Below are positions 22,806 to 39,849 of a stretch of DNA of 64,000 nucleotides, piece by piece. The notes below the pieces were generated by a model, which saw only the letters and a list, made by a program, of their open reading frames with translations, searched no databases and was not told the DNA's origin. Source of the DNA: Cellulomonas cellasea (GTDB lineage: Bacteria; Actinomycetota; Actinomycetes; Actinomycetales; Cellulomonadaceae); NCBI RefSeq assembly GCF_006538745.1, contig NZ_BJLR01000019.1, positions 124,001 through 188,000 on the forward strand. The letters are read 5' to 3'. Positions within the stretch are counted from its first letter, which is position 1; the number at the start of each line of letters is the position of its first letter. Position numbers and translations under genes: made by a program.

Positions 22806-22973
22806 GGGTGCCCTCCTCTTCGTTGAAGGCGCCGGCCTGACCACGGCGGTCTTCGATCGAGGTACCCGGAGCGGGGCTCCGGACGCCACTACCGAGGACC
22901 GGACGGGTGGTCGGCGCGGTGGGTGGTGCTGGTGGTGCTGCCGGACGGCTCACCTGAGCGTGCCCGACGCGGA

Positions 22974-36473: not shown

Positions 36474-39413
36474 TCAGGACCGCGGCTTCTCCCGCATCTC
36501 CCACGTCTCGATCGTGTCGCCGATCTCGATGTTGTTGAACGAGCCGAGCCCGATACCGCACTCGTAGCCCTCGCGGACCTCGGTCGCGTCGTCCTTGAAC
36601 CGCTTGAGCGACTCGATCGTGAGGTTGTCCCCCACGACGGTGCCGTTGCGGAGCACGCGCGCCTTCGTGTTGCGGCGGATCTCCCCGGAGCGCACGAGCG
36701 AACCGGCGATGTTGCCGAACTTCGAGGAGCGGAACACCTCGCGCACCTCCGCGGTGCCGAGCTGCGCCTCCTCGTACTCCGGCTTGAGCATGCCCTTGAG
36801 GGCGGCCTCGACGTCGTCGATGGCCTGGTAGATGACCGAGTAGAACCGGACGTCCACACCCTCGCGGTCGGCGAGCTCCTCGACGCGCTCCGCGTACTTG
36901 ACGTTGAACCCGATGATGATCGCGTTGTCGACCGTCGCGAGGTTGACGTCGTTCTGCGTGATGGCACCCACACCGCGGTGGATGACGCGCAGGTCGACCT
37001 CCTCGCCGACGTCGATCTTGAGCAGCGCGTCCTCGAGGGCCTCGACGGCACCCGAGACGTCGCCCTTGAGGACCAGGTTGAGGGTCTCGACCTTGCCCTG
37101 CTGGAGCGCCTGCGTGAAGTCCTCGAGGCTGATGCGCTTGCGACGCTTCGCCAGGAGGGCGGCACGCTCGGCCGCCTCGCGCTTCTCGGCGATCTGCCGC
37201 GCGGTGCGCTCGTCGGACGCCACCAGGAGGGTGTCGCCGGCGCGCGGGACCGACGCGAGACCGAGCACCATGACCGGACGCGCCGGCCCTGCTGCGGTGA
37301 CCGTCTCGCCGTGCTCGTCGAACATCGCCCGGACGCGGCCGTGGGCCGTGCCGGCGACGATCGCGTCACCGACGTGCAGCGTGCCCGACTGGACGAGGAC
37401 CGTCGCGACGGCACCGCGTCCCTTGTCGAGGTTGGCCTCGATGGCCACGCCGCGCGCGTCCTTGTCGGGGTTGGCCCGCAGGTCGAGCGCCGCGTCCGCC
37501 GTGAGGAGGACCGCCTCGAGCAGCGAGTCGATGCCCTGGTTCTGCTTCGCGGAGACGTCGACGAACATCGTGTCGCCGCCGTACTCCTCGGCCACGAGGT
37601 TGTACTCCGTGAGCTGCTGACGGATCTTGGCGGGGTTGGCCCCCTCCTTGTCCACCTTGTTGACCGCGACCACGATCGGCACGCCGGCCGCCTGGGCGTG
37701 GTTGAGCGCCTCGATCGTCTGGGGCATCACGCCGTCGTCGGCCGCGACCACGAGGATCGCGATGTCCGTGACCTGCGCACCACGCGCACGCATGGCGGTG
37801 AACGCCTCGTGACCCGGGGTGTCGATGAAGGTCAGCGCACGGTCGACGCCCTCGTGGACGTGACGCACCTGGTAGGCACCGATGTGCTGCGTGATGCCGC
37901 CGGCCTCGCCCGCGACGACGTCCGTGGAACGGATCGCGTCGAGGAGCTTGGTCTTGCCGTGGTCGACGTGGCCCATGACGGTCACGACGGGCGGCCGCGG
38001 CTGCAGCTGCTCGTCGTCCTCGTCCGCGAGCTCCTGGTCCAGGTCGATGTCGAAGGCCCCGAGCAGCTCGCGGTCCTCCTCCTCGGCCGACACCATCTCG
38101 ATGACGTACCCGAGCTCGACCGCGAGCGTGCCGAACGTGTCCTCGTCGAGCGACTGCGTCGCGGTCGCCATCTCACCGAGGTGGAACAGCACCGTGACGA
38201 GGCTGGCGGGGTTCGCGTCGATCTTGTCGGCGAAGTCGTTCAGCGAGGAGCCGTGACGCAGGCGCACGACCGTGCGCCCGTTGCCGCGGGGAACCTGCAC
38301 GCCACCCAGCGAGGGGGCCTGCATCTGCTCGAACTCCTGGCGCTTCGCGCGCTTCGACTTCCGTCCGCGCACGGGGCGACCGCCGGCGCGACCGAACGCA
38401 CCCTGCGTGCTGCCGCGACCGGCACCGCCGGGGCGACCACCGCCGCCACCGGGACGACCGGCGAAGCCGCCGCCGCCCGCAGGAGCGCCGCCGGGGGCGC
38501 CACCGGGACGACCGGCGTAACCGCCGCCGCCGCCACCGGGACGACCACCGGGGCCGCCACCACCCGGACGACCGCCGGGACCCGGGCGCTCACCCGGGCG
38601 GCCGACGCCGCTCGAGCTGCGGCCCGGCATCATGCCGGGGTTGGGACGCGGTCCACCGGGACGGGGACCGCCCGGACGCTCGCCCGCGGGGGCCGGGGCG
38701 CCGGACGCGGCCGCGGGGGCCTCGCCGCCGCGACGGTCGCCGGGACGGGGCATGCCCTGCGACGGCGCGAACGGGTTGTTGCCCGGACGCGGGCCGCCCG
38801 GACGGGGACCGCCCGAGCCGCCCTGACCACCGGAGCGGGGCATGCCCTGCGACGGTGCGAACGGGTTGTTGCCGGGACGCGACGCGCCACCGGGACGACC
38901 GGACTGAGCCGGTGCGGCCGGGGCCGGACGGGGGCCGGGGCGCGCGGCGTCGCCGGCGGAGCCGGGACGACGTGCCGGTGCCGGGGCGCCGGGAGCCGGT
39001 GCGGCGGGTGCCGAGGCGCTCGCCGCACGGGCGGGGGCGCTCGGCGCGGCCGGAGCGGTCGCGGCCGGGGCCGCCGGAGCGGCCGGGGCCGGTGCGGCCG
39101 GACGTGCGGGAGCCGGCGCGGCGGGTGCCGCAGCGGCCGGGCTGGGGGCAGCAGCGGCAGGTGCCGGTGCGGCCGGGGCGGCAGCGGCAGGCGTCGGCGC
39201 GGCGGCCGGCTTCGGCGCCGCGGGACGTGCCGGCGCCGGGGCGGTCGCGGAGCCACCCACGGGGTAGAGGTCGCGCAGCTTGCGCACGACGGGCGGCTCG
39301 ATCGTCGAGGACGCCGAACGGACGAACTCCCCGAGGTCGCCCAGCTTGGTCATGATGGTCTTGCTTTCCACACCGAGCTCTTTGGCGAGCTCGTAGACGC
39401 GGACCTTGGCCAC
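36474..39413 (-). CDS. infB: Translation initiation factor IF2
   Basis: 979 residues from a GTG preceded by AGGAGA. The IF2N domain ([20 protein letters not shown]) opens the protein. A very long Ala/Pro-rich and then Gly/Arg/Pro-rich low-complexity linker follows (about residues 55-345). The GTPase domain then has [19 protein letters not shown] and NKVD, and domains II-IV complete the protein. IF2 brings initiator tRNA to the 30S subunit. The start is ambiguous by design or chance: ATGTG at 39415-39411 offers an out-of-frame ATG overlapping the GTG and encoding 21 codons. Upstream lies the micro-ORF ladder at 39457-39537. Confidence 0.96.
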
Positions 39414-39456
39414 ATCTCTCCTGTCTCGGTCCGCCCAGGAGAGGGTCGGACCGTCG

Positions 39457-39474
39457 TTAGTGCGAGGTACTCAT
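39457..39474 (-). CDS. infB leader micro-ORF 4 (MSTSH)
   Basis: Five codons, ATG AGT ACC TCG CAC then TAA. Its ATG overlaps the stop of micro-ORF 3 in ATGA (39474-39471). It is the last rung of the ladder; 43 bases separate its stop from the infB start. Whether it is translated is unproven. Confidence 0.5.
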
Positions 39475-39488
39475 CGCTGGGTACTCAT
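39471..39488 (-). CDS. infB leader micro-ORF 3 (MSTQR)
   Basis: Five codons, ATG AGT ACC CAG CGA then TGA. Its start overlaps the stop of micro-ORF 2 and its stop overlaps the start of micro-ORF 4, each through ATGA. The unit repeats every 14 bases (GTACTCATCG on the plus strand at 39467 and 39481, GTGCTCATCG at 39495). Confidence 0.5.
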   Translation of the reverse strand: MSTQR

Positions 39489-39502
39489 CGGTGCGTGCTC
39501 AT
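39485..39502 (-). CDS. infB leader micro-ORF 2 (MSTHR)
   Basis: Five codons, ATG AGC ACG CAC CGA then TGA. The start overlaps the stop of micro-ORF 1 in ATGA (39502-39499). Like micro-ORFs 1 and 3 it ends with the rare arginine codon CGA directly before TGA. Confidence 0.5.
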   Translation of the reverse strand: MSTHR

Positions 39503-39537
39503 CGGGCAGCCATCGGCTTGTCAAACCCGCTTCCCAT
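39499..39537 (-). CDS. infB leader micro-ORF 1 (MGSGFDKPMAAR)
   Basis: Twelve codons, with a second in-frame ATG at codon 9. It contains TTT and other codons unusual for this GC-rich DNA. A GGGAG lies about 16 bases upstream, too far for an ordinary ribosome binding site. Its CGA-TGA end overlaps the start of micro-ORF 2. It lies in the 172-base gap between ylxR and infB, after a small hairpin at 39556-39572. Confidence 0.5.
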   Translation of the reverse strand: MGSGFDKPMAAR

Positions 39538-39555
39538 GTCGACGGTTCGGTGCTC

Positions 39556-39572
39556 CCGGGTTCGGGACCCGG
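39556..39572 (-). promoter_or_regulatory. Hairpin at the head of the infB leader
   Basis: CCGGGT (39556-39561) pairs with ACCCGG (39567-39572) over a 5-base loop, 14 bases past the ylxR stop. It could be a partial terminator or a structure that presents the micro-ORF ladder. Confidence 0.4.
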
Positions 39573-39585
39573 TCGCTGGTTCCCC

Positions 39586-39849
39586 TCAGCCGCGCTCGAG
39601 ATGCTCGCGCACCGGTGCGACGTCCAGCGGACCTGCATGACGCAGGGCCCGCGGGAACGCCCGACGGCGCTCGGCAAGCTCGAGGCAGTGAAGCTCGGGG
39701 TGCAGCCACGCCCCCCGGCCCGGCATCCGACGACCGACGTCGACGACCACTGCGGGTTCCCCCGCGGTGCCCGTCCCGACGACCGTCCTCAGCAGGACCG
39801 ACCTCGGGCCGGTCGACCGGCACCCCACGCACGTGCGGGCCGGACCCAT
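39586..39849 (-). CDS. ylxR: YlxR/RnpM-family RNA-binding protein (DUF448)
   Basis: 87 residues from the ATG at 39849. The family signature is complete: RTCVGCRSTGPRSVLLRTV, then VDVGRRMPGRGAWLHP, and RRAFPRAL near the end. Members lie between nusA and infB in most bacteria; in Bacillus the protein binds and modulates RNase P RNA. The frame is open up to a GTG at 39942 that overlaps the nusA stop, so a form 31 residues longer is possible. A TAGACT at 39928-39923 could be an internal promoter for ylxR-infB. Confidence 0.85.
   Translation of the reverse strand: MGPARTCVGCRSTGPRSVLLRTVVGTGTAGEPAVVVDVGRRMPGRGAWLHPELHCLELAERRRAFPRALRHAGPLDVAPVREHLERG

Follow-up and report, generated by a model that had tools for sequence, protein, structure and literature searches.

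Leader reading frames whose translation governs the gene behind them are known from transcription attenuation of trp and his and from translational attenuation of the ermC type, and among the initiation factors infC is autoregulated through IF3. To our knowledge, control of the amount of IF2 in bacteria is poorly known outside E. coli, and we know of no earlier leader that reads initiation-factor activity through serial termination-reinitiation. Excerpts of one report give infC (IF3) a non-canonical start codon and state that infB and infC of S. coelicolor belong to the SigR regulon (PMC5472188). Here we describe the leader of infB, which encodes IF2, in a 64-kb stretch of Cellulomonas cellasea DNA (the window) and in its relatives. 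The architecture of this leader, a ladder of coupled micro-ORFs followed by a hairpin and a competing helix, is well supported by comparison among leaders. That it would act as a translational attenuator, gauging (re-)initiation capacity and feeding back on IF2, is a reading for which we find the case evenly balanced.

The infB leader of Cellulomonas cellasea

An earlier note on this DNA had described, on the minus strand between ylxR and infB, four tiny ORFs of which three end in CGA-TGA, a 14-nt spacing of the rungs and an ATG at 39415 that overlaps the infB GTG. Direct reading bears out each of these, with the starts and stops given in Table 1, and Pfam backs the identities of YlxR, NusA and IF2 at the flanks. 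The first rung was only partly right: the ATG from which it was drawn (39537) exists, but the conserved rung start is the in-frame ATG at 39513, giving MAAR. Because a four-codon MAAR or MATR first rung is found in four of the five Cellulomonas-named records (L099, L102, L107 and L108; in the fifth, L101, the first ORF is longer and closes with MATR), 4-5-5-5 codons is the best reading of the ladder (MAAR-MSTHR-MSTQR-MSTSH), with MGSGFDKPMAAR as a possible longer form of rung 1. No other chain of at least three coupled ORFs of 3-14 codons occurs elsewhere in the 64-kb window, and a 24-base double motif occurs there twice, in overlapping copies, against a shuffle mean of 0.00.

Table 1. Features of the infB leader and its flanking genes in the window, in order of transcription.
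Feature	Coordinates	Strand	Remarks
ylxR, upstream gene	39586..39849	minus	87 codons and stop if the start is ATG 39849; Pfam YlxR, E 1.8e-19
Conserved box GGAAGCGGGTTTGACA	39519..39534	minus	Found by eye; GGAAGCRGGTCGAGA-like in many of the leaders listed
ORF1, MAAR	39499..39513	minus	4 codons; TGA 39501-39499 overlaps the next ATG; longer form MGSGFDKPMAAR from ATG 39537
ORF2, MSTHR	39485..39502	minus	5 codons; ATG at 39502; TGA 39487-39485; ATGA coupling
ORF3, MSTQR	39471..39488	minus	5 codons; ATG at 39488; TGA 39473-39471; ATGA coupling
ORF4, MSTSH, last rung	39457..39474	minus	5 codons; ATG at 39474; stop TAA 39459-39457
Arm A of H1 (CGGUCCG)	39447..39453	minus	Starts at the 4th nt past the last stop
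H1 loop segment CUCUCCUG	39436..39443	minus	Complementary to CAGGAGAG, the infB Shine-Dalgarno region
Arm B of H1 GGGCGGACCG	39427..39436	minus	Pairs with A or, through its GCGGACC, with infB codons 3-5
infB Shine-Dalgarno region CAGGAGAG	39416..39423	minus	Read directly
Element C (G-GUC-CGC)	39399..39405	minus	Spans the end of infB codon 3 through codon 5; could pair with arm B in place of A
infB (IF2)	36474..39413	minus	GTG start, 979 aa; Pfam IF-2 and IF2_N

The start context of infB reads AUGUG (39411-39415, minus strand), the overlapping ATG being out of frame; the Mycobacteriales-like leaders L015 and L017-L019 have ATGTAGTG instead, a start-stop pair that overlaps the infB GTG. An Rfam identity for the leader was rejected, as no covariance model matched 39300-39700 at E up to 1. 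A gathering scan of the window returned Actino-pnp RNA only elsewhere (RF01688, 56.6 bits, at 22845-22903 on the minus strand).

Distribution of the ladder

Searches with the N terminus of IF2 matched 160 of 246 genomes across the phylum and 388 of 394 in the class, and part of these class leaders were read. The 231 leaders of class Actinomycetes used here comprise 24 from the phylum search (window included), 28 from the class search, and sets of 40, 80 and 59; the 80 named records are the best 80 of 497 candidates, 50 of them Streptomycetaceae, and the 59 were drawn from 60 fetched leaders, L238 being left out for want of a start. With rungs defined as 3-14 codons with ATG or GTG starts, 222 of the 231 (206 of 215 distinct leaders) carry three or more coupled micro-ORFs before infB, and the leaders that fall short have ladders that are reduced, longer-rung or nearly coupled. 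A chain of at least three arose in 126 of 10,750 dinucleotide shuffles of leaders from the class (1.2%). No such chain was found in 26 leaders from other classes of Actinomycetota (6 + 20, the infB start in the 20 being the match position and maybe a few codons off), two of which have a chain of two.

When rungs of up to 40 codons are allowed, all 42 family codes and 103 of the 105 genus codes have at least one leader with a ladder, so that the earlier note's tentative mention of similar repeats in other actinobacteria proves well founded for every family code of the class that was sampled. Across these leaders the ATGA links are kept while peptides, middle codons and rung lengths differ. The commonest lengths of the last three rungs are 4-4-6 (58/213, mostly Streptomyces) and 4-5-6 (46/213). 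In L034 and L109 an ORF of 30 and 18 codons, respectively, is ATGA-coupled to a single four-codon rung (MRKQ, MRRQ), and inspection by eye suggests that both loci lack ylxR.

A triple ATGA pattern with 11- and 14-nt spacing matched 54 times in 98 genomes, compared with once for the reversed pattern. It is nearly private to infB: out of the 54 matches, 30 were fetched and 29 of these are infB leaders (27 assigned by script; the coordinates of the other two, L285 and L288, place them 67 and 72 nt upstream of infB matches).

Sequence evidence for probable translation of the ladder

When neighbouring ATGA sites separated by 5-24 nt were counted with no ORFs assumed, 139 of the 152 distinct stretches had a spacing of 2 mod 3 (359/415 when repeated stretches are counted), namely 8, 11, 14, 17 or 20 nt; the ATGA stop/start overlaps thus stand in the phase that termination-reinitiation coupling calls for. 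GTG takes the place of ATG at the middle link in 18 of 213 ladders. The link dictates an ANN second codon and an NNA last codon, and since the middle codons vary at all three positions, the peptides are not conserved. To judge from this pattern, it is the reading-frame architecture that is kept, while the peptides vary. Peptide-specific stalling was rejected as unlikely because the micro-ORF peptides are not conserved, and among the class leaders, in which the middle codons vary, we found no conserved codon run or peptide such as an amino-acid-sensing leader peptide would hold.

The letters GAUGAGYAC are common to many families, and the repeats might therefore be taken for protein-binding sites with the ORFs incidental. 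Against this stand the 2 mod 3 phase over all of those spacings, the substitution of GTG for ATG, and the freedom with which the letters differ while the links stay (MDN/MSGSK/MRPVRQ in L188 and MSTQP/MKQHQR/MKVTAND in L187). We rejected an untranslated motif on the ATGA phase and regard it as extremely improbable.

Shine-Dalgarno strengths, calculated against what we take to be the letters of the 16S tail, fall off within the ladder, with median anti-SD energies over 193 distinct leaders of -5.0 for ORF1, -1.9 for ORF2, -2.2 for ORF3 and -9.4 for infB. An energy of -5 is reached by 9% of these leaders at ORF2 and 1% at ORF3, and all 193 distinct infB starts tested have -5 or lower. As Shine-Dalgarno sites are mostly missing there, ORF2 and ORF3 are probably reached only by re-initiating ribosomes, and the conserved box upstream is the probable weak Shine-Dalgarno of ORF1. 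By eye, the conservation of this box in the window and at many other loci seems to go beyond what a weak Shine-Dalgarno would need. In the Microbacteriaceae-like leader L024 the ladder is apparently entered from the ylxR stop via TAATG. The serial termination and reinitiation that the earlier note envisaged is thus strongly supported, as far as comparison of leaders can do so, by the phase, the GTG at the middle link and the mostly missing internal Shine-Dalgarno sites.

The stops could point to a different gauge, one that responds mainly to RF2, RRF or EF-G and not to IF2, with infB as its output. Internal ATGA links use TGA, although of 132 distinct last ORFs 107 close with TAA or TAG, and among 167 distinct internal units 93 have CGA as their final sense codon, both of which would suit a sensor of termination or recycling. 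The internal UGA, however, is imposed by the ATGA overlap itself and hence is not independent evidence, and such a gauge gives no reason why infB rather than a release-factor gene should carry the ladder; we consider it quite unlikely.

A hairpin after the last stop

The earlier account of the leader stands for its ladder half, but it missed the output half, namely the hairpin H1 (arms A and B) and the competing pairing of arm B with infB codons. In the window H1 has a folding energy of -20 kcal/mol, and 6 of 200 shuffles are as stable. Across the 169 distinct leaders in which three rungs are present and the last stop lies within 75 nt of infB, 159 have H1 at -10 kcal/mol or lower, compared with 40% of 6680 dinucleotide shuffles; the mean z-score is -2.83, and 85% of the 169 lie below -1.5. 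The case for H1 is made from folding energy and z-score in place of position, as a first base pair no more than 9 nt from the last stop, seen in 165 of the 169 leaders, is also seen in 95% of shuffles and was discarded as evidence. Likewise, an A:B swap test with arms taken from the fold is circular and was not used.

H1 begins a median of 3 nt past the last stop and 24 nt past the start of the last rung, and ends a median of 14 nt before the infB start. Excerpts of one study put the ribosome footprint at about 12 nt downstream of the codon being read (PMC4833913). By that measure arm A falls inside the footprint expected of a ribosome terminating at the last stop, which should mask it, and beyond the reach of one that is still starting the last rung. 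Where the last rung has grown to 23-25 codons, in the Arthrobacter-type leaders L123, L144, L149, L164 and L216 and in L237, its stop is still 0-4 nt from H1, and in L180 and L201 arm A appears by eye to lie inside the end of the last rung. Family f76 supplies two exceptions, L190 and L192, which lack H1 and arm B but keep the ladder; their last stop is just 20-21 nt before the infB GTG.

An alternative helix with infB codons

In most of 45 hand-picked leaders (36 families; f2, f66, f69, f76, f79 and f93 are not included), arm B is complementary to infB codons 3-6 (element C). Binding of the H1 loop and B to the ribosome-binding site and infB start came to -20.4 within a leader's own sequence versus -17.2 when leaders were swapped (0/5000). 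In the 34 of these leaders with enough sequence, control swaps against later infB codons or against the ladder gave no own-leader effect (725 and 4787 of 5000). In 115 of 126 distinct loci, and in 91 of 102 after collapsing, arm B pairs with the wobble position of Arg codon 5 in infB, versus a mean of 62 and a maximum of 76 in 10,000 permutations; 220 class leaders entered this test, 64 being skipped because the last stop, B or C was unrecognisable, and 11 with a hand-located start were left out. The H1 base opposite the codon-5 partner pairs in 78 of the 110 loci where a simple pattern could name it. Taken column by column over 71 distinct pairs, two of nine B:C positions beat every permutation and the remainder barely vary.

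Phylogeny was allowed for on a tree of 67 IF2 sequences, of which 62 pair, compared with a mean of 34 and a maximum of 58 in 971 runs of independent evolution and a maximum of 53 in 691 composition-matched runs. An independent-pairs test leaned the same way (2.7 for and 0 opposite of 4; 1.5 and 0.1 of 3) and is underpowered. Codon 5 is CGG in 39 of 75 loci, compared with 482 of 3864 CGN codons elsewhere in the infB fragments, and when native B:C was ranked among synonymous variants at 72 loci the median was the 13th percentile, with 16 loci at or below 0.05 and 51 at or below 0.5. None of these covariation tests depends on the evidence for H1. B:C therefore covaries beyond phylogeny in this comparison, one of the covarying infB positions being synonymous, although some families are exceptions. 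This suggests RNA pairing as the constraint on a synonymous codon position early in an essential gene.

Most Microbacteriaceae-like and Mycobacteriales-like leaders show no preference for B:C over its synonymous variants (percentiles 0.58-0.99), L185 and L196 standing at about 0.27. By eye, these leaders offer other pairings, either loop CCTGTC with Shine-Dalgarno GACAGG, which is also seen near the window, or arm B CCTC with Shine-Dalgarno GAGG, and such loop:SD or B:SD pairing would have to replace B:C there. In L201, also by eye, codon 4 of infB encodes Ile in place of Val (AAG-ATT-CGG) and the sequence of arm B is GGATC and not GGACC, a change that follows C, while A keeps GGTCCGG.

In a reading with positive coupling and no switch, the ladder would hold ribosomes and pass them on to infB, and H1 would serve to shorten the effective distance from the last stop to the Shine-Dalgarno. 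With H1 folded about 17 nt remain, the sum of a 3-nt median gap before the hairpin and 14 nt between it and the infB start; in the f76 leaders, which lack H1, the last stop is 20-21 nt from the GTG; and upstream short ORFs have been proposed to raise downstream translation (excerpts of PMC4833913 and PMC12548453). Yet infB owns a strong Shine-Dalgarno (median -9.4), the linear distance from the last stop is mostly 35-60 nt, serial links could only lose ribosomes on the way, and the covarying B:C pairing would go unexplained. Delivery without a switch is in our judgement unlikely.

A putative gauge of initiation capacity

What comparison of the leaders shows is the ladder, its phase, the weak or absent internal Shine-Dalgarno sites, the geometry of last stop and hairpin, and a covarying helix that excludes H1. 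Beyond this we infer that the ladder is translated in vivo, that its use turns infB off and that IF2 is the quantity sensed. In the attenuator that we propose, a ribosome would start de novo at the weak Shine-Dalgarno site of ORF1, and with ATGA overlaps and scarce later Shine-Dalgarno sites it would be mainly terminating and re-initiating ribosomes that advance along the ladder. The flow reaching the last rung would be roughly the entry rate times p to the power n, p being the probability of re-initiation, which should rise with IF2, since IF2 and fMet-tRNA are both required for re-initiation. Once at the last ladder stop, a ribosome would cover arm A and so leave arm B free for infB codons 3-6; a further pairing, of the H1 loop with the Shine-Dalgarno, would be available in the window and some relatives. 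Either pairing, B:C or loop:SD, would bury the infB start and lower IF2 synthesis. When re-initiation is poor the ladder would be empty, A:B would form first as the RNA emerges and the infB start would stay free, the net outcome being steep negative feedback on IF2.

In E. coli, re-initiation is raised by overproduction of IF2 and lowered by that of IF3, and its need for IF2 may exceed that of de novo initiation (excerpts of PMC2268962), and it is because of this requirement that the ladder could gauge initiation capacity. The earlier note had supposed that the ladder could sense initiation, termination or recycling capacity and set the level of IF2, and by analogy with E. coli we follow it for initiation. 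The sign of the regulation is the weakest step of a model that, taken overall, we hold about as firmly as we doubt it. The fuller version, a class-wide RNA device that would multiply the probability of re-initiation over two or three serial restarts with little or no Shine-Dalgarno and then close infB by the A:B/B:C flip, is put forward tentatively, at somewhat less than an even chance.

Equilibrium folding agrees with a downstream effect of ribosome position for the window, where masking 9 nt past the stop lowers the openness of the Shine-Dalgarno from 0.80 to 0.28, but not in general. Among 201 leaders folded in this way a clear drop with A masked is confined to the window and some relatives; most change little, some rise (L066, from 0.11 to 0.66), and in several Streptomyces-type leaders (L004, L005, L126 and L162) B:C is the predicted minimum even unmasked. 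Sequestration of the Shine-Dalgarno as the sole, universal output was rejected, as masking A does not generally lower its openness at equilibrium. Because most leaders change so little, the general model would have to rely on A:B forming first during transcription.

In a 1998 study by Karimi (cited in PMC10192219), IF1 and IF2 are said to eject short peptidyl-tRNAs, an effect opposite to the one proposed here. Under such a scheme IF2, with IF1, would empty a ladder of 4-6 codon rungs when abundant, and with positive coupling to infB this would give negative feedback without a switch; 4-6 codons is the length class of minigenes prone to drop-off. Positive coupling is nevertheless a requirement of this alternative, the B:C helix is left unexplained and the last rung can reach 23-25 codons, and we think a drop-off gauge very unlikely. 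Were the proposed attenuator to hold, it would be a steep, cooperative IF2 homeostat across Actinomycetes, and a leader conserved over 42 actinobacterial family codes would give a concrete mechanism for setting the IF2 level. It would also serve as a natural in vivo reporter of re-initiation and would test how post-termination ribosomes restart.

Comparison with known systems

With A:B set against B:C and A masked by a ribosome, the proposed switch has the logic of an attenuator. As in the trp, his and ermC attenuators, there are exclusive helices (1:2 versus 2:3) and a ribosome on a leader ORF would mask segment 1; both helices have evolutionary support, in the energy of H1 and the covariation of B:C, with some families excepted, and the micro-ORFs, which are predicted to be translated, are conserved together with their phase and the geometry of last stop and H1. 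The infB leader differs from these attenuators in that segment 3 is the regulated gene's own coding sequence, in that the masking ribosome would come by serial re-initiation, and in that neither peptide nor codons are conserved, so that no amino acid or drug seems to be read. With infC (IF3) it would share the principle that an initiation factor's own mRNA reads the activity of the factor; IF3, however, reads its own start codon, whereas infB would use a separate ladder and an RNA switch. The programmed frameshift of prfB (RF2) similarly autoregulates a translation factor via the step it catalyses, but the step is another one and there is no RNA switch.

The 4-nt stop/start overlap is that of ATGA termination-reinitiation gene pairs, which in excerpts of PMC6728339 are real genes, typically with a Shine-Dalgarno before the second, whereas the ladder consists of three to four serial micro-ORFs mostly without one. 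Mycobacterial small ORFs and MIRU repeats also use an RTGA link to the next frame, as single links in the excerpts of PMC4633059 and PMC12548453 and not in series as at infB, and the word infB is not present in the main text of PMC4633059. In the open literature searched, the titles and beginnings of abstracts of the papers listed gave no prior description of an actinobacterial infB ladder or leader switch. The parts of this leader are of known kinds, and it is their combination, a serial re-initiation ladder joined to a switch for which the gene's own coding sequence supplies the third strand, that appears to be new.
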